Assembly (NCBI GenBank): GCA_016930175.1 | Contig: JAFGHJ010000048.1 | Location: forward strand, 1-64,000 | Length of the DNA: 64,000 bases | Reading direction: 5' to 3' | Origin: Caldifarciminota bacterium | Lineage (GTDB): Bacteria; Hydrothermota; UBA3072 | Shown: one piece after another, positions 29,000 through 45,296 of the stretch | Numbering within the stretch: position 1 is the first letter of the stretch | Layout: every line of letters begins with the position of its first letter | Notes under the pieces: model-generated | Seen by the model: the letters and a program-made list of their open reading frames with translations, nothing else | Told to the model about the DNA's origin: nothing | The model's database searches: none | Translations under genes and position numbers: made by a program

Positions 29000-29383
29000 T
29001 TACAGCTTCAACTCCTCCTCGTTAACCCATAAACCATGGATATTGCAGTAGGAAAAAGCGTAAATTGTCCCGGATTTTTCGGTCTTAAAAGTTAAAGTAG
29101 CATCCGGTTCGGTATAAACCGTGCTTGTATCGGCGCCTTCCGTTGAAGCTCCATGCGCAGCAAAATCCGCCTTTCCTATCATATAAGGAAACTTACTTCC
29201 TTCGCCCTTAAAATAAACTTCGATCCATACAATATGGTGTTCGGTTTTATTAGGATGAGCAATTTCTTTCCCAACAGAAACCCTAACTTTAACCTTTTTT
29301 CCCTTTTCTAAAACTTCGATAACAGGAACATGCTTCTCCGACTTCCAGTCTGCTCTCTGCAATAACTCATTAAACTTTCCCAT
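29000..29383 (-). CDS. superoxide reductase (desulfoferrodoxin class II, neelaredoxin-like)
   Basis: 127 aa from the ATG at 29383; GGAGG lies 5 bases before it, and the open frame's TTG five codons upstream is not a better start. Reduces superoxide to hydrogen peroxide without making oxygen. The iron centre ligands are present: His18 in EKHVPV (with the catalytic Glu16-Lys17), His43 and His49 in AHPNKTEHH, Cys113 and His116 in SYCNIHG. No N-terminal desulforedoxin domain, hence class II. A PerR-like palindrome precedes it. Confidence 0.95.
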   Translation of the reverse strand: MGKFNELLQRADWKSEKHVPVIEVLEKGKKVKVRVSVGKEIAHPNKTEHHIVWIEVYFKGEGSKFPYMIGKADFAAHGASTEGADTSTVYTEPDATLTFKTEKSGTIYAFSYCNIHGLWVNEEELKL

Positions 29384-29412
29384 ACTTACCTCCTTCAATT
29401 ATTTAATTCAAC

Positions 29413-33558: not shown

Positions 33559-34443
33559 ATGGGTAAATCGTTAAAAGCTCTTGAACATATTATGAAGCAG
33601 ATTTACACTGCTCAAAAAAATGAAATTACCGAATATCATATCTATTCCAATATAGCAAGATTAGTAAAAGAACAAAAAAATAAAAAAGTAATTCTCGATA
33701 TTGCAAACGAAGAATTGCGTCACGCGAAATTCTGGCAAACCATCACAAAAAAAGATATAAAACCAGACCGATGGCAAATTTTCAAATTCACCTTAATCGC
33801 CAGATTCTTGGGCTTTACCTTTGCAATAAAACTAATGGAAAAGGGAGAGGAACAGGCTCAGGTTAATTATATGGAAATCGCGGAATATATACCGGAAGCA
33901 GAACAGATCGCGGAAGAAGAAGAAAAGCATGAAAACGAATTGATTAATTTGCTCGACGAAGAAAGGCTCAACTATATGGGCTCGATTGTTCTTGGTCTCA
34001 ACGACGCTCTTGTGGAATTAACAGGAAGTCTTGCGGGTTTGTCCTTTGCTCTTCAAAAAACGCGTCTCATAGCGGCAGTCGGAATAATAACGGGAATTGC
34101 CGCCTCTCTTTCCATGGGCGCCTCCGAATATCTTTCAACAAAAGCCGAAGGAAACACGGAAAAAGCTCTTAAATCTTCACTTTACACAGGAGCAGCTTAT
34201 ATTATTACTGTTTTACTTTTAGTTTTACCGTATTTTATTTTTGACAACTATTTTTTTGCCCTGATGACAACTCTAATTGTAGGGGTATTAATAATATTTT
34301 TATTTAACTACTATGTTTCAATCGCTAAAGACTTACCTTTCAGAAAACGTTTTCTTGAAATGACATTTTTGAGCCTCGGCATCGCCGCCCTTTCTTTTGT
34401 GATAGGGATAGTAATAAGAGTTACTTTGGGAGCGGATATCTAA
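33559..34443 (+). CDS. ferritin-domain VIT1/CCC1-family iron transporter
   Basis: 294 aa. Residues 1-140 are a rubrerythrin/ferritin-like four-helix bundle with the metal ligands Glu21/Glu24 region (KNEITEYHIY), EELRHAKFW, and EAEQIAEEEEKHENEL. Residues 145-294 are a VIT1/CCC1 membrane domain: SIVLGLNDALVELTGSLAGL, GIAASLSMGASEYLSTKAE. This erythrin-VIT fusion is known to move ferrous iron out of the cytoplasm or into compartments using the soluble domain as an iron sensor. Lies 24 bp after the nucleotidyltransferase gene; it begins ATGGGTAAATCG after AGGAAG. Confidence 0.9.
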   Translation: MGKSLKALEHIMKQIYTAQKNEITEYHIYSNIARLVKEQKNKKVILDIANEELRHAKFWQTITKKDIKPDRWQIFKFTLIARFLGFTFAIKLMEKGEEQAQVNYMEIAEYIPEAEQIAEEEEKHENELINLLDEERLNYMGSIVLGLNDALVELTGSLAGLSFALQKTRLIAAVGIITGIAASLSMGASEYLSTKAEGNTEKALKSSLYTGAAYIITVLLLVLPYFIFDNYFFALMTTLIVGVLIIFLFNYYVSIAKDLPFRKRFLEMTFLSLGIAALSFVIGIVIRVTLGADI

Positions 34444-35198: not shown

Positions 35199-36260
35199 TT
35201 AAAAGCAACTTCCGGTTCTTTCTTTCCTGCAGTGTTCTTTAGAACCATACTCTGAACAGCGGTAACATATTTCATTCGGCAGTTTATTATCCTCAAAATA
35301 AAGTTTTATGTTATTAAGAGTTGTTTCGGCTATATTCCTCAGAGCTTCTTTCGTGAAAAACCCCTGGTGAGAAGTTATTAGAACATTCGGAAAAGTAAGC
35401 AGCCTGGCTAAAACATCATCACTGATGATTGTGCTCGAATAATCTTCGAAGAAATATTCCGATTCTTCTTCATATACATCTAAACCCGCACTGCCAACTT
35501 TTCCCTTTTTTAAAGCCGCAATTAAATCGACAGTATCTATAAGTTTTCCTCTACCTGTGTTTATTATCATTACCCCGTCTTTCATTTTCTTAACACTGGA
35601 TTTATCTATTATATGCATCGTCTCGGGTGTTAAGGGGCAATGCAGAGTTATAATGTCGGACTCCTTATATAGAGTATCCAAAGTCACATAAGTAAAACCA
35701 TATTTTTTATCATTATCCCTATCAGGAAATTTATCATAGGCTATAACATTCATATCAAAACCTTTTAGAATCTTAGCAACGAGAATCCCTATTTTCCCTG
35801 TGCCTATTATGCCGGCAGTTTTTCCAGCCATATCAAAACCCAAAAGACCGTTTATATTGAAATTGCTGTCCCTCGTTCTGTAATACGCTTTGTGGATTTT
35901 TCTGTTCAGAGAAAGCATCAGACCAACCGTATGTTCGGCAACAGCGTTGGGAGAATAAGCGGGAACTCTGACCACATGGATTCTTCCGAAGACAGCCTTC
36001 AAGTCCACATTATTGTACCCTGCAGACCGTAGAGCTATAAGAGTTATTCCATTATTATACAATTCATCCGCCACTTCCTTATTTATTGTATCATTTACAA
36101 AAGAACAAACAGAGTCCGCGTCTTTGGTAACGATAACGTTATTTTCCGAAAGACGGCTTTGAAAATATCTTATATCATATCCGTACTTCTTATTCGCTTC
36201 GTTAAAAAAATCTTTATCGTACGGTTTCGCGTCGAAAAAAGCTACTCTCAATTTTTTCAC
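35199..36260 (-). CDS. ldhA: D-lactate dehydrogenase-like 2-hydroxyacid dehydrogenase with Cys-rich tail
   Basis: 353 aa. Reduces a 2-oxoacid (pyruvate expected) with NADH. NAD loop GIIGTGKIGILVAKIL, catalytic Arg in NTGRGKLIDT, Glu in DVYEEES, His in ITSHQGFFT; IALRSAGYNNVDL marks the LdhA group. The last 22 residues add four cysteines (332, 335, 344, 352; C-x2-C-x8-C-x7-C), a possible metal or redox site at the C-terminus. Start is GTG at 36260 with GAGGG upstream. Last gene of the long sulfur/redox run, 8 bp after korB; convergent with the 34741 gene. Confidence 0.92.
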   Translation of the reverse strand: MKKLRVAFFDAKPYDKDFFNEANKKYGYDIRYFQSRLSENNVIVTKDADSVCSFVNDTINKEVADELYNNGITLIALRSAGYNNVDLKAVFGRIHVVRVPAYSPNAVAEHTVGLMLSLNRKIHKAYYRTRDSNFNINGLLGFDMAGKTAGIIGTGKIGILVAKILKGFDMNVIAYDKFPDRDNDKKYGFTYVTLDTLYKESDIITLHCPLTPETMHIIDKSSVKKMKDGVMIINTGRGKLIDTVDLIAALKKGKVGSAGLDVYEEESEYFFEDYSSTIISDDVLARLLTFPNVLITSHQGFFTKEALRNIAETTLNNIKLYFEDNKLPNEICYRCSEYGSKEHCRKERTGSCF

Positions 36261-36268
36261 GGCTTCCC

Positions 36269-37132
36269 TCAGCTTTTTTTTGATTCTATTAAAACTTTCA
36301 TTTTCTCAAAATCGACTTCTCTTTCATACAGGGGCTTTTTATTTTTTTTATAAGCAGGCAGTTGCTCCTCAAAAGGCTTCTTTTCTTTATTTATATAAAA
36401 TACACCCAAGGGAAGTTTTTCATCTTCCATTGCTTTCTTAAAAGCTTCATTTCTATCCGTCGGGTCGTAATTGTCATCTAAATAATAAGTGTTTTCTTTG
36501 AACCATTTCCTGTCATTAAGTTTATTATAAGTAACACAGGGGTGCAGCAAATCGACGAGCGCGTATCCTTTATGTTTTATTGCTTTTTTAATTATTTCTT
36601 TGGTTTCTTCAAAGTCATCTGAATAAGCGCGCGAAACAAAAGAAGCGCCGAGACTTATCGCTACAGCGAGAGGATTGAAAGGTTCGAGTATAACACCACC
36701 CGGCTGAACAGGAGTTTTAAAGCCTTCTAAACTTGTGGGAGACGCCTGTCCTTTAGTAAGCCCATATATCATATTGTTATGAACGATATGCGTTATATCC
36801 GGATTTCTTCTGATTGCATGCAGGAAATGATTGCCTCCCTCCCCATACATATCACCATCTCCGCCTTCCGCTATCACGACCAAGCTTTGATTTACAGCCT
36901 TTATGGCGGTAGCCGGAGGCAGAGATCTCCCGTGTAAACCGTTAAATACATTCGCCTTAAAATAATGAGGCGCCTTGGCACCCTGACCGATTCCGCAAAC
37001 CATAACAAGTTCTGAAGGAGCTATATCGAGTTCCGATAATGCGTCTTTTAATATCTTAAGGATGCTGAAATTTCCGCAGCCCGGGCACCAGGCGATATCT
37101 ATTTTACCCATATCATATGTTTTAGCATCCAT
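36269..37132 (-). CDS. korB: 2-oxoacid:ferredoxin oxidoreductase beta subunit
   Basis: 287 aa. Holds thiamine diphosphate and the [4Fe-4S] cluster: Cys16, Cys19 (WCPGCGNF), Cys46 (VCGIGQG), Cys199 (HPCVTYN); TPP motif [13 protein letters not shown] (91-103). Oxidatively decarboxylates a 2-oxoacid to acyl-CoA with reduction of ferredoxin. 2-oxoglutarate or branched 2-oxoacids are the family default for this two-subunit form; pyruvate cannot be excluded. Start codon shares a base with the korA stop (TAATG). Confidence 0.93.
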
Positions 37133-38835
37133 TATTTATCCTCCTTTTTTAAGATTGCTTTAAGCTTCCCTACTATCTCCTCCACCCCAAAAGGCAAGCC
37201 ATTGTACTTTAATATCGAGCCATCTACCTGTATCCCCGTTTCCATTTTAATTAACTTCGCAAACTGACCGGTGGCGTTGTTTTCCACAACAATGGTCTTA
37301 TCTGCCTTTTCGATATGTTTCCGGGTATCGGGATGAAGCGGATAAACCTGTTTATAATGCAAAAAAGCCATATTTTTATTATCCATTCTATCCAAGGCTT
37401 CTTTTATCCCGTAATAAGTAGAACCCCACCCTATTACCAGTGTTTTATAATTTTTATTACCGACAAGCTCCGTAGGTTCTATTTCCTTCTTAATTAAATC
37501 CATTTTCCTGAGTCTCTTATCGACTATCTCGGTCCTGAAATCGAGGTCTTCGGTTATATGACCCTCTTCGTCGTGCTCGTCACTGTCTACAACCACAAGA
37601 CCCTCACCGTAACCCGGAATACCTCTCGGGCTTACACCGTCTTTGGTTACTTTATAACGTTTATAATCTTTACCGGTTTTTACGAAATATTTTTTGTTTT
37701 TTAGCTTAGAAATGTCTATCGAAGAAACAAGAAACGAAGAATCAAGAAGATACTGATCAGTCATAATAATAGCCGGAACCTGAACCTTATCCGCAAGATC
37801 AAAAGCCTTCCGCGAAAGATTAAAAATATCTTCAGCTTTACCGGGTGCGAATATTACTCTCGGAAATTCTCCGTGTCCGGCAAACAGAGCAAAAAGTAAA
37901 TCACCCTGTTCACTTCTAGTGGGAAGACCTGTCGCCGGACCCGGTCTCTGGGCGAGATGAATCACTATCGGAGTCTCGAGCATTCCGGCAAGGCTTAATC
38001 CCTCAACCATCAAAGCAAAACCGCCTCCGGAGGTTGTCACCATTGCTCTCGCTCCCGCGTAGAAAGCCCCCAGAGACATATTGATAGCACATATTTCACT
38101 CTCCGCCTGCTCGGCTACTATTCCGAATTCCTCCTGCTGCTGTGATAGAAAAGTTAGAACTCCGGTCGAAGGAGACATAGGATAAGAGGAAATAAAATTA
38201 CATCCCCCTGCTATAGCTCCCAGAGACACTAATTCGGTCCCGTTCAACAGTAAATGTTCTTTAGCCTTTTCGTCTTTTTTCAGATCAAAGTCGATGCCTT
38301 TTGCTTCCACCATATCTTTTCCTATCTCATAACCTTTTTTAGCTGCTTCAATGTTATCCTCAATGATTTTTCTATCCTTTTTCTTAAAATATCCCCTTAT
38401 AAAATATTTAACTCTGTCAAAATCTACATCGAGCATACCCGAAAGTACTCCAACTGTAACGGTATTCGCGTAAAGTTTATTTCCCGCCTCTTTTGCCAGT
38501 TCTATAAAAGGAACTTCAAATGTCTTTTTAGATTTACCTCCTATAAATTCCTTTTCCCCGATTATTATCGTATCTTTACCTATTCTCCATCTAACATGGT
38601 CGAACGCCTTAGAATCCAGCGGGATTAAAACATCTATTTTTTCGACAAAGGAATTGACAGGGCTATCGGACACTCTAATTTCAGTGGAGTTACTCCCGCC
38701 TCTTATTCTGGACATGAACTCTCTTGCGGAAAACACGAAGTAACCGGAAAGCTTAAGGATGGAAACGAGTATATTCTCCACGGTTTGAATACCCTGACCG
38801 GCCTCACCGCATAAAACAATCGAAATATCTTTCAT
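37132..38835 (-). CDS. korA: 2-oxoacid:ferredoxin oxidoreductase, fused gamma-alpha subunit
   Basis: 567 aa. Residues 1-180 are the gamma domain ([34 protein letters not shown]). Residues 195-567 are the alpha (pyrimidine-binding) domain: [63 protein letters not shown], and the C-terminal transketolase-like part. The fused gamma-alpha plus beta form lacks a separate ferredoxin subunit and donates directly to ferredoxin. 50 bp after ptsI; AGGGGAGG before the ATG. Confidence 0.93.
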
Positions 38836-38885
38836 CTTACCTCCCCTAAGTCTGACTTAATATCCAACTCCTAATCTTTCGACAA

Positions 38886-40604
38886 TTAAAATATTCGCCT
38901 TTTAAAAAATTTTTCAATGTCATTTTTTTTAAGATTCTTATAGAATTCATCGAGATATGATTTACCGGGTTTTTCAAGATGCAGCAAGTTGCATTTTATA
39001 TCGCTAAGCTTAGATGCCTCCACACTAAAATTATTTATTCCAAGACTCAAGAACAGCGGATAAAATTCTTCGAAGCTTGCAATCTCACCGCATAAACAAA
39101 TTTCCTTTTTATATTTTCGGGTCTCCCCTATAACGATTTCCATAAGGCGAATCAGTGAAGGATGAAGTATATGATATCTCTTTTCTATTATCTGGCTGTT
39201 TCTGGAAGCGGCAAGTGTATATTCCAGAAGATCATTTGAACCGATGTTGGCAAAATCCACGTGCTTCAAAAGTATTCCTGCCATGACTGCCGCGGCAGGT
39301 GTTTCTATCATTATTCCTTCTTTTACATCTTTTTTATATTCTTTGCCTTCCTCGTCGAGTATAGATTTCGCTTCCTTAACAACTTCTCTGAAAGACTCGA
39401 TATCCGAGATATCCGATATCATAGGATACAACAATCTAAGGTTTCCGTGAGTAGAAGCTCTAAGTATCGCTTTAGTCTGGTCCAAATACATGTCATAAAA
39501 AATATTTATTGCCCTAGCACCTCGTATTCCGAGATCATTGTTTTCTCCCGAAGGCAATTGTAAATAAGCCGGCATTTTATCCCCGCTAATATCGAGTAAT
39601 CTTATGTCCACATTTTTTTCTTTGGCAGCTTTTGCAATATTTTTATAAACCTTGAACCATTCTTCTTCGGTGGGTGGTTTATCACGGTTCATGAATAAGA
39701 ATTCCGAGCGAAGAAGACCTACCCCATCATAATTCAATCCTTCGAGCAACTTTATTTCAGCCTGCAAACTTATATTAGCTTTAAGTGTAAGCCGTACCCC
39801 CTTTTTTGTTTGAGTGGGTTCTTCTTTTTTAATTACACAGAATTTCTTACGTTTTTCCGCTTCCTTTAACTTTTCATCATAATATTTTTCCGTTTTTTTA
39901 TCGGGATTAATAATAACTTTACCCAAAGATGCATCAACAATAACTGAATCTCCACAGTCTATATTTTCTGTAGCGTTTACACCAAATATTATGGGCACAC
40001 CGTAATTCTGAGCAAGAATAGTGGCATGAGAAGTAAGTCCACCTTCTTCGGTTACAAAAGCAAGTACATCACTCTGAGCTATGTTTAAAACCATGGAAGG
40101 AGTTAAACGTTTGGAAACGACAATCACAGGCTGTCTTTCATTTAAAGGACATTCAAACTGACCGGAAACGCCGTCAAAAGAAGAAAGCAGGCGATTTCTA
40201 ACATCGACAATATCATGGGTCATCTCCGAAAAATGATAGTCTTTTCGTTTGAACTTTTCCTGATAACTATCAAAAACATCATTTACCGCGTGTTCAGCGT
40301 TAATCAGTCTCTTCTTTATAAGAGCAACTATCTCTTCAAATAATGCTTCATCCTCTAAGATCGTGCCGTGCGCAGCGAATATCTCCTCGCCGGTTTTTCC
40401 GAATATTTCCTCGGATGCCTTCAACATATTTTCTATTACTTCTCTTGTTTTACCGTAAGCTTCTTTTAAACGAGCAATTTCTTTCTCTATCTTTTCTTCC
40501 TCGATCATATAATGAGGAATATTTTCTTCTACTTCTTCGGTATATACATTAGCAATTCCTTTTGCTAAACCTGAATTTGCGCTTATACCCTTTAGGATTT
40601 TCAT
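38886..40604 (-). CDS. ptsI: phosphoenolpyruvate-protein phosphotransferase (PTS enzyme I)
   Basis: 572 aa. Full-length EI: HPr-binding helical domain (about 25-140), phosphorylatable His193 in GGLTSHATILAQ, PEP-binding barrel with GVGLLRSEFLFM, DISGDKMPAYL, ICLCGEIA catalytic Cys. Transfers phosphate from PEP to HPr. In most EI the barrel motif reads GIGLxRTEFLFM and DxGGDK; here GVGLLRSEFLFM and DISGDK, slightly divergent. No HPr, HPr kinase or EII lies in the window, and it is placed among redox genes, so a regulatory or PEP-sensing role is possible. Confidence 0.9.
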   Translation of the reverse strand: MKILKGISANSGLAKGIANVYTEEVEENIPHYMIEEEKIEKEIARLKEAYGKTREVIENMLKASEEIFGKTGEEIFAAHGTILEDEALFEEIVALIKKRLINAEHAVNDVFDSYQEKFKRKDYHFSEMTHDIVDVRNRLLSSFDGVSGQFECPLNERQPVIVVSKRLTPSMVLNIAQSDVLAFVTEEGGLTSHATILAQNYGVPIIFGVNATENIDCGDSVIVDASLGKVIINPDKKTEKYYDEKLKEAEKRKKFCVIKKEEPTQTKKGVRLTLKANISLQAEIKLLEGLNYDGVGLLRSEFLFMNRDKPPTEEEWFKVYKNIAKAAKEKNVDIRLLDISGDKMPAYLQLPSGENNDLGIRGARAINIFYDMYLDQTKAILRASTHGNLRLLYPMISDISDIESFREVVKEAKSILDEEGKEYKKDVKEGIMIETPAAAVMAGILLKHVDFANIGSNDLLEYTLAASRNSQIIEKRYHILHPSLIRLMEIVIGETRKYKKEICLCGEIASFEEFYPLFLSLGINNFSVEASKLSDIKCNLLHLEKPGKSYLDEFYKNLKKNDIEKFFKRRIF

Positions 40605-40628
40605 TGATATTTCTCCTGATTCATTAAC

Positions 40629-41147
40629 TTAATATAAAAACTTCTCAAAGCGATCTTTTTTAGCCTTACAGATAGGACAAACTCCCGGCGGCTCGTCCCT
40701 CCCACAGAGATATCCGCAAACCTTACAACGCCATATGGGTTTAGACAACTTCGATTGCCCTATCTTATTTTCCCTCGACACCTCTTCGATTTTTTCTCTT
40801 ATCTCTTTAGGTGGTCTTCTCTCCGGTATCTTTCTAACTTCTCTTTCTCCGTCTACGACCGCCTGCGAAACATAAAGCCCGCAATAGCAGGTATCATAAT
40901 CGTTTATATCCGCGTCTCTGTAATCACATGGGCATATAATATCCAGGTCTTCATCCTTTTTCGCGGACGCGAGACGGCACGGACACGCCCAGTATCCGTA
41001 TCTTTTTTCATTAACGAGCAAACCTTCCACCAAATCTCTCGTGAATTCTTTCTCGGGATTTAAATGATAACCGGAAGCTTCCGCATCTTCATCTAATTTT
41101 TTATACAGTTTATCGATTTGCTCTTTTGAAATATCGATTTTATCCAT
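40629..41147 (-). CDS. ferredoxin:thioredoxin reductase catalytic subunit fused to rubredoxin
   Basis: 172 aa. Residues 1-95 are the FTR catalytic chain with three Cys pairs: Cys55/57 (ACPCR), Cys72/74 (CPCD), Cys87/89 (CYCG), supplying the [4Fe-4S] cluster and active disulfide. Residues 136-172 are a rubredoxin-like domain with Cys141, 144, 157, 160 ([18 protein letters not shown]). It would pass electrons from ferredoxin or rubredoxin iron to a disulfide partner, most simply the glutaredoxin-like protein encoded directly upstream with an 8-bp overlap. Confidence 0.92.
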
Positions 41148-41424
41148 TGTTTATCTTACCCCTTATTTCTTCTTCATCATAGCCTACCACACAATCTTTA
41201 TCATTAATAACGAGTGTCGGAAAAGAGCACAAAGGATTCCATTTAGTTACTTCTCCTTCGGCTTTTTCCTGGTCTTCCTCATTCAGAAGATCGACATCTA
41301 CATAGTGATAATCGACATTTAGGCTATTTAACAGTTTTTTTACTTTTTTACACCACACACATGTGGATATAGCATAGAGCATTATTTTCCCCTTTTTTTC
41401 TCCTTTGACATGCTTTACATCCAT
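41140..41424 (-). CDS. glutaredoxin/thioredoxin-like protein
   Basis: 94 aa. Glutaredoxin fold with active site Cys22-Val-Trp-Cys25 ([10 protein letters not shown]), cis-Pro in [10 protein letters not shown] and GYDEEEI near the end. The first 14 residues are an extension. Gene overlap with the FTR-rubredoxin protein makes it the probable substrate or electron acceptor of that reductase (NrdH/thioredoxin-like role), a known arrangement in several anaerobes. Confidence 0.9.
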
Positions 41425-41444
41425 TATTCCCCCTTTAAAAGTTT

Positions 41445-41843
41445 CTAGACATTACCGTTTATCAAGTCTTCTAAAGTAAAAGATTGTAATGTTTCTCGCA
41501 AGGTCACGCCGACTTTTTTCCACACATTTTTTGCCTTACATTGACTATACTTTTTACAAACCGATGGAGAATCTATACAAACTACCGGATTCAAAGAACC
41601 CTCGAGGACATCTACTATCTCTCCGCAATTTATATTTTCAGGAGCTCTGCCAAGAATATAACCCTCTTTTACTCTTACTATTAATCCCCTGGCCTTCAAA
41701 GATGATATAATATGGTCAAGATATTTCATAGAAACATCCAACCGTTCGGCTATCTCTTTCAAAAGGATCGGTCTATCTTTATAGCAAAGCGCGAGCTCTA
41801 TCATTGCTCTTAAACCATATCTTGTTTTCGATGAAAATTTCAT
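41445..41843 (-). CDS. Rrf2-family transcriptional regulator (IscR-like)
   Basis: 132 aa. N-terminal winged helix MKFSSKTRYGLRAMIELALC, LLKEIAERLDVSMKYLDHIISSLKARGLI and wing VKEGYILGRAPE. Three cysteines 89, 96, 102 (VVCIDSPSVCKKYSQCKAK) match the Fe-S ligand pattern of IscR (Cys-x5/6-Cys-x5-Cys). It probably senses Fe-S status and controls its own operon; the 28-bp palindrome at 44664-44691 is the obvious candidate site. Sits in the middle of the operon. Confidence 0.9.
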   Translation of the reverse strand: MKFSSKTRYGLRAMIELALCYKDRPILLKEIAERLDVSMKYLDHIISSLKARGLIVRVKEGYILGRAPENINCGEIVDVLEGSLNPVVCIDSPSVCKKYSQCKAKNVWKKVGVTLRETLQSFTLEDLINGNV

Positions 41844-41893
41844 TCTATAAAAACCTCCGTTTTCTTATTCACTCTTTCAATCATAATCTATCA

Positions 41894-42145
41894 CTAACTA
41901 ACAGCAACCACTTCTTTGACTTCTGCAATCTGCTGTTTCAGGTAACGTTCTATGCCGGATTTCAAAGTTATTTTAGATAACATACACCCCGAACAAGCTC
42001 CAGTCAACCGGACTTTCACAACTCCTTTCTGTGTAACTTCGAGGAGTTCAACGTCTCCTCCGTCAGCCCGGAGCGAGGGTCTGATATCTTTTATTGCTTC
42101 CTCGACCTTTTCTTTTATTTTACTTTCTTTTTTTTCTTTTATCAT
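41894..42145 (-). CDS. nfu: NifU C-terminal-domain (Nfu) Fe-S carrier
   Basis: 83 aa. Single Nfu domain: IRPSLRADGGDVELLEV and GACSGCMLSKITLKSGIERYL with cluster cysteines 51 and 54. Carries [4Fe-4S] clusters to target enzymes. 14 bp after iscU and 50 bp before the Rrf2 gene; AAAGGAG precedes the ATG. Confidence 0.93.
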   Translation of the reverse strand: MIKEKKESKIKEKVEEAIKDIRPSLRADGGDVELLEVTQKGVVKVRLTGACSGCMLSKITLKSGIERYLKQQIAEVKEVVAVS

Positions 42146-42159
42146 TTTTACTCCTTTTT

Positions 42160-42795
42160 TTAAACTGAAAAATTAACAATAACTTCATCTATATCCCACA
42201 AACTTTCCAACTTTTCCACTATTTCTTCCCTGATGTTGTTGGCGAACTGATGCTCTTCGGGAAGATTTACCGTAACCTCTGCGGTTCCATTTTCCACCTT
42301 AACACCAGTTATCAAATTGGTTCTTACAAGGTCTAAACCCGCAAGAGGATTCATGACATGTTTCAGCCTCTTCAGTACTATTTCTTTCGTTGTAGGAATT
42401 TTTTCCTTGATAAGACCGTGTTTTTCCTCATAATTGGCAATTGCAGCCCGCAGTCCGTCAACAGCCAGCACCGAACAATGAGTTTTTATTTTGGGCAGTC
42501 CTCCAAGCGCATCCGAAGCCTGCTTCCAGCTTATGTTTTTAGCTTCTTCGAGGGTTTTTCCCTTTGCCAATTCCGTTATTATGGAACCGGTTGCAATGTT
42601 CGAAGCACAACCATAGGATTCGAATTTTATATCCTTAATCTTCTTTGTATCTTCATCAACTTTAATATAAACCGAAACCATATCTCCGCATGCGGGACTG
42701 CCTTCTGTAGATTTCCCATCGGGATTTTCAATACTTCCTACATTTCTGGGATTCCTAAAATGCTCAAGAACTTTTTCACTGTATGGGAATTTCAT
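42160..42795 (-). CDS. iscU: IscU-type scaffold fused to a MIP18/DUF59-like domain
   Basis: 211 aa. Residues 1-127 are an IscU scaffold with Cys36, Asp38 (PACGDMVS), Cys63 (YGCASNIATGS) and Cys107 (KTHCSVLAVDGL), all ligands present. The LPPVK-type chaperone motif is replaced by LPKIK. Residues 133-211 (TTKEIVLKRLKHVMNPLAG, GTAEVTVNLPEEHQFA, WDIDEVIVNF) look like the MIP18/SufT (DUF59) domain used in Fe-S delivery. IscU is normally about 125-150 residues, so this is a fusion joining scaffold and delivery functions. Two bases after iscS. Confidence 0.88.
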   Translation of the reverse strand: MKFPYSEKVLEHFRNPRNVGSIENPDGKSTEGSPACGDMVSVYIKVDEDTKKIKDIKFESYGCASNIATGSIITELAKGKTLEEAKNISWKQASDALGGLPKIKTHCSVLAVDGLRAAIANYEEKHGLIKEKIPTTKEIVLKRLKHVMNPLAGLDLVRTNLITGVKVENGTAEVTVNLPEEHQFANNIREEIVEKLESLWDIDEVIVNFSV

Positions 42796-42797
42796 CT

Positions 42798-43973
42798 TTA
42801 CCTCACTTTCTCTCCTTTAAGAGGGCTAATTACTCTCAACTGTCTTACTATTTCCTTAAGAGCTTCTACCATCTTGTCTACATCTTCCTTTTTATTAAAT
42901 CTTCCGAAAGTAAAGCGAACAGAACCGTGAGCTCTCTCATGATCGCCTCCGATACCCAGTATTACATGGCTAGCTTCGAGAGATTTACTAAAACACGCAG
43001 AACCTGTACTCACGGCAAAACCCTTCATATCCAGATGTAGCGTTATAGATTCCCCCTCAACGTAGTGAAAAGTTATATTAGCATTATGCGGAATTCTTTT
43101 CTCCGGATGACCATTCGGAGTGGTATAGGGTATCTCATTCTGAATTTTTTCTACAAGATAGTCCCGCAAATTTCTAAGTGTTTCGTTTTCTTCTTTTGTT
43201 ACCAACTCGACTGCTTTAGCGAAACCAACTGCCCCGGGAATATTCTCAACGCCGGCTCTCAAATCAAACTCCTGAAATCCGCCGTCGATCCATTTAGCCA
43301 CGGGAACCCCTTCTCGCACAAACAGAGCTCCAATTCCCTTTGGTCCGTGAAACGTATGCGCGGACACCGTCAGCAAATCCACACTTAACTTGCTCAAATC
43401 AAAAGGAATTCTCATAAAAGAATGTGTAGCGTCAGAATGAAAAATTACATTATTTCTGTCGCATATTTCGCCAATCGTTTTTATATCCTGAATCGTTCCT
43501 ATCTCCTGATTGGCGTGCTGAATCGAAACCAATATTGTTTCTTTGCTTATTGAATCTTTAAGCTGATTCAGGTCAACAAGGCCATATTTATCTACGTCAA
43601 GGTAAGTAACTTTAATTCCATTCCTTTCAAGAGACTTTGCACTGTTCAGCACTGGGAAGTCCTCGATTTTGGATACAATTATGTGTTTCCCTTTTTTACC
43701 TGAAAGATTCCTGACAACTCCTTTAATAGCAATATTACTCGATTCCGTACTCCCTGAAGTAAAAATCAACTTTCCTTCGGGATTCCCCAACGCTGAAAGT
43801 ATTTTTGCTCTCGCTAAATCTAAAGCTTCCCTTGCTTCAATTCCAAGGGAATATCCGAATTCGGAAGTTGCTACAGCATAAACATCAAAAAAGTACGGTT
43901 TCATTGCCTCCAGAACCCTTTCGTCCATTCTGCTGGAAGCTGCGTTATCAAAATAAATCGTCTTTTTATCCAT
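42798..43973 (-). CDS. iscS: cysteine desulfurase (IscS/NifS-like), divergent subgroup
   Basis: 391 aa PLP enzyme that takes sulfur from cysteine. PLP Lys212 in SAHTFHGPKGIGAL, sulfur-carrying Cys327 in STGSACFSK with a short loop, and SVRFTFGRFNKKEDVD. Departures from IscS: the stacking His of the T/K-EH-AV motif is Asp105 (KIEDFPVL), and the Gln of DAxQ is His184 (SDATHSF). These may define a separate subgroup rather than loss of function, since the rest is intact. GAGGTGA precedes the ATG. Confidence 0.9.
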   Translation of the reverse strand: MDKKTIYFDNAASSRMDERVLEAMKPYFFDVYAVATSEFGYSLGIEAREALDLARAKILSALGNPEGKLIFTSGSTESSNIAIKGVVRNLSGKKGKHIIVSKIEDFPVLNSAKSLERNGIKVTYLDVDKYGLVDLNQLKDSISKETILVSIQHANQEIGTIQDIKTIGEICDRNNVIFHSDATHSFMRIPFDLSKLSVDLLTVSAHTFHGPKGIGALFVREGVPVAKWIDGGFQEFDLRAGVENIPGAVGFAKAVELVTKEENETLRNLRDYLVEKIQNEIPYTTPNGHPEKRIPHNANITFHYVEGESITLHLDMKGFAVSTGSACFSKSLEASHVILGIGGDHERAHGSVRFTFGRFNKKEDVDKMVEALKEIVRQLRVISPLKGEKVR

Positions 43974-43985
43974 ATCTAATCACCT

Positions 43986-44405
43986 CTAAATAAACAGAGT
44001 TACGTCTGACTCCATTGCCTCTTTAATGTAAGTACCCACACCGCAATAGTTACTTATCACATCAGTTCTTAAAGATTCCTTCTTTACGCCCATTATGTCC
44101 ATTGTCATGTCGCAGGCGAGAATTTTTCCTCCTAGCTCGACGAAATCGGAAAGCATTTTATCGAGAGAAGCGACACCAGCCCTCTTCATCTTACGTCTTA
44201 TCATCCACCTGCCGAGTCCGAACATGTTCATTCTCGAAAGAGGAGCCCTGTTCAATTGCCCTTTCCTAAGACGCATGAGCCCCCAGAAAGTAAAAAACAT
44301 TGAAACTTCCATACCCATGGAAAGAGCTCCCAGACCGATAATAAAAGCGCTGTACACTTTATCTAAATCTCCGCTGTGAACGATTAAAGTTGCCTTCTTA
44401 TTCAT
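43986..44405 (-). CDS. DsrE/DsrF/DrsH-like sulfur-relay protein
   Basis: 139 aa. KKATLIVHSGDLDKVYSAFIIGLGALSMGMEVSMFFTFWGLMRL is the DsrE_2-type start. A basic loop (LGRWMIRRKMKRAG) follows, then DMLSDF-like helix, ILACDMTMDIMGVKKESL with Cys98, and ISNYCGVGTYIKEA with Cys121. Members of this family accept and hand on persulfide sulfur, and commonly neighbour TusA. Lies 9 bp after tusA and 12 bp before iscS. Likely cytoplasmic or membrane-associated. Confidence 0.85.
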   Translation of the reverse strand: MNKKATLIVHSGDLDKVYSAFIIGLGALSMGMEVSMFFTFWGLMRLRKGQLNRAPLSRMNMFGLGRWMIRRKMKRAGVASLDKMLSDFVELGGKILACDMTMDIMGVKKESLRTDVISNYCGVGTYIKEAMESDVTLFI

Positions 44406-44414
44406 ATTATCCCC

Positions 44415-44636
44415 CTATTTACGAATCCTTATCGACCATACACCACCTTCTTCCTCGACCCCCAGAAGCTCAAGCCCCATAGACTTTACCGCCATAGGTA
44501 TTTCTTTCTTCGAAGATTGATGAGTTCCCGTAATTTCTACCACATCACCTTTAGAAGCTTTACGCAAAGCCTTTCTTGCTTCAACGAGAGGAACGGGACA
44601 CGTTTCATTTATGCAATCAATTTTTATTTCAGCCAT
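44415..44636 (-). CDS. tusA: TusA-family sulfurtransferase
   Basis: 73 aa from the ATG at 44636, which has GGAGG 5 bases upstream; the frame is open from a TTG four codons earlier but that overlaps the site. IDCINETCPVPLVEARKAL contains the persulfide Cys13 in CPxP, and GDVVEITGTHQSSKKEIPMAVKSMG is the rest of the fold. Moves sulfur between IscS-like desulfurases and acceptors such as DsrE proteins. First gene of the twelve-gene run. Confidence 0.93.
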   Translation of the reverse strand: MAEIKIDCINETCPVPLVEARKALRKASKGDVVEITGTHQSSKKEIPMAVKSMGLELLGVEEEGGVWSIRIRK

Positions 44637-44663
44637 TTTATCCTCCAATTTTAAATTGCCTTA

Positions 44664-44691
44664 TTCTACTAATTCTATAGAATTAGTAGAA
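44664..44691. promoter_or_regulatory. 28-bp perfect palindrome, candidate Rrf2 operator
   Basis: TTCTACTAATTCTA followed by its exact reverse complement, no spacer. It begins 8 bases after the -10 box of the minus-strand promoter, so a bound dimer would cover the transcription start of the tusA operon. Confidence 0.75.
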
Positions 44692-44699
44692 CTACCAAT

Positions 44700-44727
44700 A
44701 ATATACTACTATTCTTTATTTTGTCAA
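44700..44727 (-). promoter_or_regulatory. promoter of tusA-ldhA operon
   Basis: Minus strand TTGACA (44727-44722), 16 bp, TATATT (44705-44700). Confidence 0.78.
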
Positions 44728-44894: not shown

Positions 44895-45296
44895 TCAATC
44901 GAGCAGGCGTTTTTGTCCTTTTATTTTCTGAATATCCGTTATATTCTGAGTAACCTCGAGGCATCCTAAATATTTACCTGATTTACCTCTAAGAGCATAG
45001 TATTCGATAAGAATCTTTTGCTTGCCTTTACCCTCTAAAGGAAGGTCTATCCAGAATCTCGCCTTTTCCCTCTCCCCTTTTTTCATTTCTTGAAGTATTT
45101 TTTCCACTTTTTCCAGGCTTTTCTTGGGATGGCAATCTCGAACATCCCTGCCGACTACTCCAAGAGGTCTTTTAAACAACCTCGTTGCATGCTTGTTCCA
45201 GGCAAGAACTTTATCGTTTTCGTCCAACACCGAGAATTCAAACGGCACCGTGTCTAAAAGCGCCTGTAAAACATCACCGGTTAAATTACCTATCAC
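44895..45296 (-). CDS. PAS-domain protein (DUF438 C-terminal type)
   Basis: 133 aa, a single PAS domain and nothing else. VPFEFSVLDENDKVLAWNKHATRLFKRP, VVGRDVRDCHPKKSLEKVEKILQEMKKGE and YYALRGKSGKYLGCLEVTQNITDI. The GRDVR-CHPxKS wording is that of the PAS domain at the end of DUF438 proteins, here standing alone. It may bind a small ligand or heme; no output domain is attached. GTG start with AAGGAGG upstream. An imperfect GAGTTAA/TTAACTC inverted pair follows the stop. Confidence 0.85.
   Translation of the reverse strand: MIGNLTGDVLQALLDTVPFEFSVLDENDKVLAWNKHATRLFKRPLGVVGRDVRDCHPKKSLEKVEKILQEMKKGEREKARFWIDLPLEGKGKQKILIEYYALRGKSGKYLGCLEVTQNITDIQKIKGQKRLLD

Follow-up and report, generated by a model that had tools for sequence, protein, structure and literature searches.

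Operons for iron-sulfur (Fe-S) cluster assembly that encode their own regulator have been described, e.g., in Escherichia coli (iscRSUA), Thermincola potens, and Rhodobacter sphaeroides, where an Rrf2 protein with three ligand-type cysteines is encoded within the isc operon; a palindrome overlapping the start region and an iscS-iscU core are further marks of such IscR/Rrf2-controlled systems. These features are shared by a run of twelve genes, tusA to ldhA, in the 64,000-nucleotide stretch analyzed here (hereafter the window; contig JAFGHJ010000048.1 of the Caldifarciminota bacterium assembly GCA_016930175.1). The run also encodes a ferredoxin:thioredoxin reductase (FTR) catalytic subunit fused to rubredoxin, which matches the PDB entry 4tpu over its full length (E = 1e-75) with the FTR and rubredoxin cysteine pairs kept; this solved chain, named Rubredoxin in the PDB, is a fused FTR-rubredoxin as well, which we take to be the ferredoxin:disulfide reductase of Methanosarcina acetivorans. 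Enzyme I (EI) of the phosphotransferase system (PTS), encoded by ptsI, shares three domains, the phospho-His, and the residues of the phosphoenolpyruvate (PEP) site with E. coli EI (2hwg). The products of korA and korB resemble the 2-oxoacid:ferredoxin oxidoreductase (OFOR) StOFOR of Sulfolobus tokodaii (PMC5020499) in the gamma-alpha fusion with a beta subunit, the CxGC motif, and the lack of an intramolecular ferredoxin domain.

We favor, with some reservation, the reading that this run is an IscR-type, self-regulated Fe-S/sulfur operon to which stress and redox functions have been added. All twelve open reading frames (ORFs) lie on the minus strand, each behind a purine-rich ribosome-binding site, and family and profile assignments agree with the names given in the original prediction. 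From tusA to ldhA the gaps measure 9, 12, 2, 14, 50, 20, -8 (overlap), 24, 50, -1 (overlap), and 8 bp, i.e., at most 50 bp, as had been stated. The start of tusA is most likely the ATG at 44636 behind GGAGG rather than the upstream TTG at 44648, and the gene run is therefore 35199-44636. The one clear promoter noticed before tusA is indeed the sole 11/12 sigma-70-like match on the minus strand; other promoter-like matches on this strand reach 9/12, which is near chance (36 found on both strands versus 27.2 +/- 4.8 expected), and terminator-like sites are likewise at chance level (8 found versus 8.4 expected). From gene order, gaps, and promoter we infer co-transcription, and the twelve genes probably form one switchable unit for Fe-S cluster building and for keeping protein thiols reduced. 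Since long one-strand runs are common in the window (13, 7, and 7 among ORFs of at least 150 amino acids), the length of the run is unremarkable on its own, and the real signal is the gene content together with the operator.

This probable operator is a 28-bp palindrome, TTCTACTAATTCTATAGAATTAGTAGAA, located directly after the -10 box. With an arm of 14 nucleotides, versus no more than 10 in 30 Markov simulations, it exceeds every other perfect palindrome in the window. A degenerate pattern of it was scanned across the 147 genomes of the phylum, which is the scope of the thorough comparative search as a whole, and the promoter-operator pattern matched only three genomes (G000, which is that of the window, G031, and G005), in each case immediately before isc genes. 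In G031, which belongs to another family, the same promoter-operator precedes rrf2-iscS-iscU-MIP18, and in G005, a member of the same family as the window genome, it precedes tusA-dsrE-iscS. The palindrome starts 36, 36, and 35 nucleotides after the first base of the -35 box TTGACA in G000, G031, and G005, respectively, the last value having been read from the printed sequence, where an overlapping upstream half-site lies at 26. A reversed control pattern matched three other genomes, once each, and no further operator copies with up to three mismatches were found in the genome of the window.

The regulator encoded in the middle of the run is, as had been proposed, of the Fe-S type: Cys89, Cys96, and Cys102 are spaced as cluster ligands are, and the protein scores above the curated cut-offs of PF02082 (98.4 versus 30 bits) and TIGR00738 (105.9 versus 73.3). 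It stays below that of the IscR equivalog TIGR02010 (83.0 versus 207.55 bits) and is therefore called IscR-like rather than IscR. Its closest Rrf2 relative in the phylum (49% identity) is the regulator beside the G031 site. Because the palindrome is conserved at the isc promoters of three genomes, two of them other than that of the window, and because this closest relative is encoded at one of these sites, it is very probable that the IscR-like protein encoded in the operon uses the palindrome as its operator. The regulator would thus act on its own isc promoter. The features are compiled in the following table.

Features of the twelve-gene run and its promoter region (window positions)
Feature	Position	Strand	Remarks
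Sigma-70-like promoter TTGACA-18-TATTAT	44698..44727	-	11/12 matches; alternative TTGACA-16-TATATT, 44700-44727; same promoter in L066 (G031) and L189 (G005)
28-bp perfect palindrome TTCTACTAATTCTATAGAATTAGTAGAA	44664..44691	.	Probable operator of the Rrf2 regulator
tusA, sulfur carrier	44415..44636	-	PF01206; start = ATG 44636 behind GGAGG; 78% in G005
dsrE-like sulfurtransferase	43986..44405	-	PF13686 DrsE_2; 74% in G005
iscS/nifS-type cysteine desulfurase	42798..43973	-	PF00266; STGSAC loop; 69% in G005, 63% in G031
IscU scaffold fused to MIP18-type FeS_assembly_P domain	42160..42795	-	Fusion in 16 other genomes, 57-70%
nfu, NifU C-terminal domain	41894..42145	-	PF01106
Rrf2/IscR-like regulator	41445..41843	-	Cys89-x6-Cys96-x5-Cys102
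Glutaredoxin/NrdH-like thiol protein	41140..41424	-	CVWC motif
FTR catalytic subunit fused to rubredoxin	40629..41147	-	Closest solved chain 4tpu
ptsI, second PTS enzyme I	38886..40604	-	PEP site intact; HPr-contact Arg126 = Met
korA, 2-oxoacid:ferredoxin oxidoreductase gamma-alpha fusion	37132..38835	-	
korB, 2-oxoacid:ferredoxin oxidoreductase beta	36269..37132	-	
ldhA-like D-2-hydroxyacid dehydrogenase, Cys-rich C-terminal tail	35199..36260	-	

The isc core carries its expected residues, i.e., the catalytic cysteine in the STGSAC loop of IscS and three cysteines of IscU in the motifs PACGD, GCASN, and HC. Parts of the run recur in the phylum. The tusA-dsrE-iscS arrangement of G005 can be followed to the contig end inside iscS, and iscS-iscU-MIP18 is found in 16 other genomes, several of which have tusA or rrf2 alongside. 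The glutaredoxin gene (grx) stands directly before that of FTR-rubredoxin in 11 of the 60 nearest genomes, so that the pairing noted originally extends beyond the window, and in four genomes of family f15 the pair directly follows iscS-iscU. The cysteines of FTR-rubredoxin are kept as FTR pairs and rubredoxin CxxC pairs (Cys55/57, 72/74, 87/89, 141/144, and 157/160). In G012 (family f7), a segment of no more than 12 kb contains nfu-tusA-iscS-iscU, grx-FTR, a NiFe hydrogenase, desulfoferrodoxin, and rubrerythrin. Two further observations concern the thiol pair: an AbrB-like plus PIN-like gene pair, read by eye as a toxin-antitoxin type, is an insertion that separates grx from FTR-rubredoxin in G099 and adjoins FTR-rubredoxin in G100 (L190:3749-4356 and L193:10782-11389), and in G005 a gene for a heavy-metal P-type ATPase immediately precedes grx-FTR-rubredoxin (L154:464-3183), with a possible link to copper stress.

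KorA and KorB score above the cut-offs of the alpha and beta family models (TIGR03710, 663.9 versus a cut-off of 482.75; TIGR02177, 372.2 versus 261.9), and the fused-alpha type of KorA is rare in the phylum, with strong matches in 32 of the 147 genomes including that of the window. The closest relatives occur in a second family, f36 (about 50% for KorA, 63% for KorB), and a tree of 42 KorA proteins unites the window KorA with those of f36 in one clade with a support of 100/100. In three of the four f36 genomes (G097, G099, and G100) korAB is associated with grx-FTR, in line with the proposed connection between the two, and the surrounding genes encode desulfoferrodoxin, rubrerythrin-like, nitroreductase, or peroxiredoxin proteins. 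In G097, iscU, korAB, and grx-FTR even form one run on one strand, followed by a hydrogenase. With the window left out, FTR is found near korA in three of the four members of the window clade but at only one of the 29 other loci (p = 0.003); the four clade genomes in this comparison are relatives of one another, and it includes some short contigs. The presence of enzymes capable of providing low-potential electrons alongside FTR-glutaredoxin in f36 and G012 supports the proposed electron flow by association. Because korAB stands beside grx-FTR in f36 and the KorA clade is fully supported, it is reasonable to assume that ferredoxin electrons derived from KorAB would feed the FTR-glutaredoxin pair. 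In an alignment of KorB with the Sulfolobus enzyme, Cys16, Cys19, and Cys199 correspond, while the third cluster cysteine is replaced by Gln50, with Cys46 four residues upstream; by this alignment, the third ligand would be displaced (Cys46) in the window protein or absent (f36). The subfamily has GIGQ where other KorBs have GIGC.

The surroundings of these genes provide several side observations. A desulfoferrodoxin gene of the window (29000-29398), 57% identical to that of G097, lies on the same strand 5.8 kb beyond the operon, and its f36 equivalent is found inside the korAB-FTR cluster. Just beyond the operon, the plus strand (33559-34443) encodes a fusion of a rubrerythrin-domain protein with a VIT1-type iron transporter. 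In G139 (family f15; L233:5629-16870), iscS-iscU-grx-FTR and two tandem korAB pairs lie on opposite strands, about 4 kb apart. At the promoter end, a lone PAS_10 gene is situated just upstream of the operon (44895-45296), and the occurrence of the same PAS in related genomes as part of a fusion with DUF438-hemerythrin, encoded close to isc or grx-FTR (L081:7195-8328 and L150:11751-12971), suggests that the PAS_10 protein is an oxygen/redox sensor belonging to this neighborhood. In G005, genes for a hybrid-cluster (prismane) protein and a MarR regulator are directly upstream of operator-tusA-dsrE-iscS (L189:1494-3416).

A PTS enzyme I without HPr had originally seemed to lack an explanation. 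The premise has to be rejected, since HPr (C26:944-1183) directly followed by a canonical EI (C26:1206-2897) is encoded on contig C26 of the same genome, in an order and context that recur in the congener G001, and the window ptsI is therefore a second, divergent copy. Its product is 29-34% identical to the EIs of the phylum, which share 37-75% among themselves. It keeps the equivalents of His189, Arg296, Arg332, Arg358, Glu431, Asn454, Asp455, Arg465, and Cys502, while Arg126 and Tyr122 (E. coli numbering) are replaced by Met and His, respectively; Arg126 is invariant in E. coli EI and in all 16 other phylum EIs compared. In the E. coli EI-HPr complex, the side chains of Arg126 and Tyr122 contact the Leu14 carbonyl of HPr (PMC3724859), and the title of a classical study, as cited in PMC5537066, attributes to Arg126 a role in phosphoryl transfer. 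Judged by these residues, the window EI is likely a catalytically competent enzyme with altered or weak transfer to HPr. That it is nevertheless an ordinary duplicate, which phosphorylates the C26 HPr and by its operon position ties PTS phosphorylation to Fe-S status, is quite possible, if short of an even chance: the three domains, the residues from His189 to Cys502, and the presence of HPr and a canonical EI in the genome agree with it, whereas the two exchanges at the HPr contact and the distance from the other phylum EIs do not. We consider it rather improbable that the enzyme has left the sugar PTS altogether, having kept its PEP machinery and lost the HPr contact, and now passes phosphate to, or senses PEP/pyruvate for, an Fe-S/redox partner; if it has, carbon status and Fe-S status would be read in one operon. 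A home of ptsI outside the phylum was sought and dismissed, as a single scan of genome contigs gave one unrelated locus at 25%, and the plasmid collection contained no closer relative: its EIs are all equally distant, with identities up to about 37%, and an ordinary HPr-EI-IIA sugar cluster is the best match. A trace of recent horizontal import in base composition was rejected as well, since ptsI (GC content of 0.365 and 0.316 at third codon positions [GC3]) is not distinct from the window mean (0.395 +/- 0.033 and 0.360 +/- 0.044).

With respect to the unity of the run, an Rrf2-controlled isc-sulfur-thiol unit (tusA to FTR) could abut a separate unit around the pyruvate node, ptsI-korA-korB-ldhA, driven by a promoter of its own that lies within or ahead of ptsI. 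The halves differ in phyletic distribution, neither korAB nor ptsI occurs at the operator-bearing loci of G005 and G031 within the reach of these contigs, and a weak promoter-like site exists at 38917-38888. We still regard such a division as unlikely, because the gap before ptsI is 24 bp, no promoter of at least 10/12 matches lies in between on the minus strand, and G097 has iscU, korAB, and grx-FTR in a single run. An assembly by chance, in which ptsI, korAB, and ldhA were inserted in this lineage behind a strong and useful isc promoter without any shared electron or phosphate circuit, would fit the lack of conservation of the whole order, the ordinariness of long directons in the window, and the absence of a matching neighborhood of ptsI and ldhA elsewhere; it is made quite doubtful by a distant family in which korAB of the same clade accompanies the same type of grx-FTR pair in an oxidative-stress setting. 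A contig chimera is unlikely because one end of the run (tusA-dsrE-iscS) is closest to a genome of the same family, G005, and the other (ldhA) to one of the same genus, G001, and contamination amounts to 0.21%.

Several observations weigh against a self-regulated, extended Fe-S operon. The gene-neighborhood comparison found the full twelve-gene order in none of the relatives examined, in which only sub-modules recur, and the 147 phylum genomes contain no orthologue of ptsI (at most 36%), so that the conservation of ptsI with iscSU envisaged in the original prediction was not borne out; as for korAB, iscU is part of the korAB run of G097. The only close ldhA relative in the phylum comes from the same genus (G001, 66%) and stands alone, apart from isc genes. 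No Rrf2 of the window type was found in the G005 assembly, whose contig ends inside iscS, and GC and GC3 do not separate added from native genes. Finally, Gln50 at the third cluster cysteine makes the KorB cluster less than certain.

As judged from these comparisons, ptsI and ldhA are lineage-specific additions. The ldhA product does not reach the D-lactate dehydrogenase equivalog NF009127 (197.3 versus 579 bits), and only general 2-hydroxyacid dehydrogenase domains pass. It ends in a Cys-rich tail, CYRCSEYGSKEHCRKERTGSCF, which resembles that of congener G001 (L230:8769-9845) and may bind metal. A shared PEP/pyruvate/2-oxoacid node is a possible reason for the grouping of ptsI, korAB, and ldhA.

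For the favored self-regulated operon, the following mechanism is proposed. Transcription would start upstream of tusA and be repressed by the Rrf2 protein, encoded mid-operon, upon binding to the palindrome just behind the -10 box. Loss or oxidation of its cluster, caused by low Fe-S or oxidants, would lead to its release and to the synthesis of all twelve gene products. TusA/DsrE and IscS could then deliver sulfur, and IscU-MIP18 and Nfu could build and hand on clusters. KorAB would oxidize a 2-oxoacid and reduce ferredoxin, from which electrons may pass via FTR-rubredoxin to glutaredoxin and finally to protein disulfides. The LdhA-like protein and the second EI would operate at the same pyruvate/PEP node; the latter, presumably autophosphorylated by PEP, is probably a poor HPr donor and would therefore act as a specialized copy, with another acceptor or in PEP:pyruvate sensing.

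If this holds true, a poorly known anaerobic phylum would harbor an Fe-S assembly operon in which one Fe-S-sensing switch controls both a source of low-potential electrons belonging to the operon, the 2-oxoacid oxidoreductase, and a ferredoxin-driven thiol reductase. The study provides a concrete candidate operator, and the natural Arg126-less EI offers a starting point in the search for PTS enzymes that work with non-HPr partners. Each part is of a known kind; the combination, the sixth-place IscR-like gene, and an Arg126-less EI in an isc operon are new to us; the open literature searched contained none of them and likewise yielded no precedent for an isc operon with ptsI or for an OFOR with desulfoferrodoxin.

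Compared with the described systems, the window Kor differs from StOFOR (PMC5020499) by YPMSP in place of YPITP, by Gln50 at the aligned third cluster cysteine, and by its operon with FTR and glutaredoxin. The window EI is, unlike E. coli EI (2hwg), a second copy besides a canonical ptsHI that is not located beside HPr and has exchanged Arg126 for Met. In contrast to the solved chain 4tpu, the window FTR-rubredoxin is encoded directly behind glutaredoxin in a bacterial isc operon. With respect to IscR/Rrf2-controlled isc operons, the regulator gene is sixth rather than first and the operator sequence is its own. The genes hscBA, fdx, and iscA are missing from the twelve, IscU carries a fused MIP18 domain, TusA-DsrE is placed in front, and grx-FTR-rubredoxin, ptsI, korAB, and ldhA are appended.

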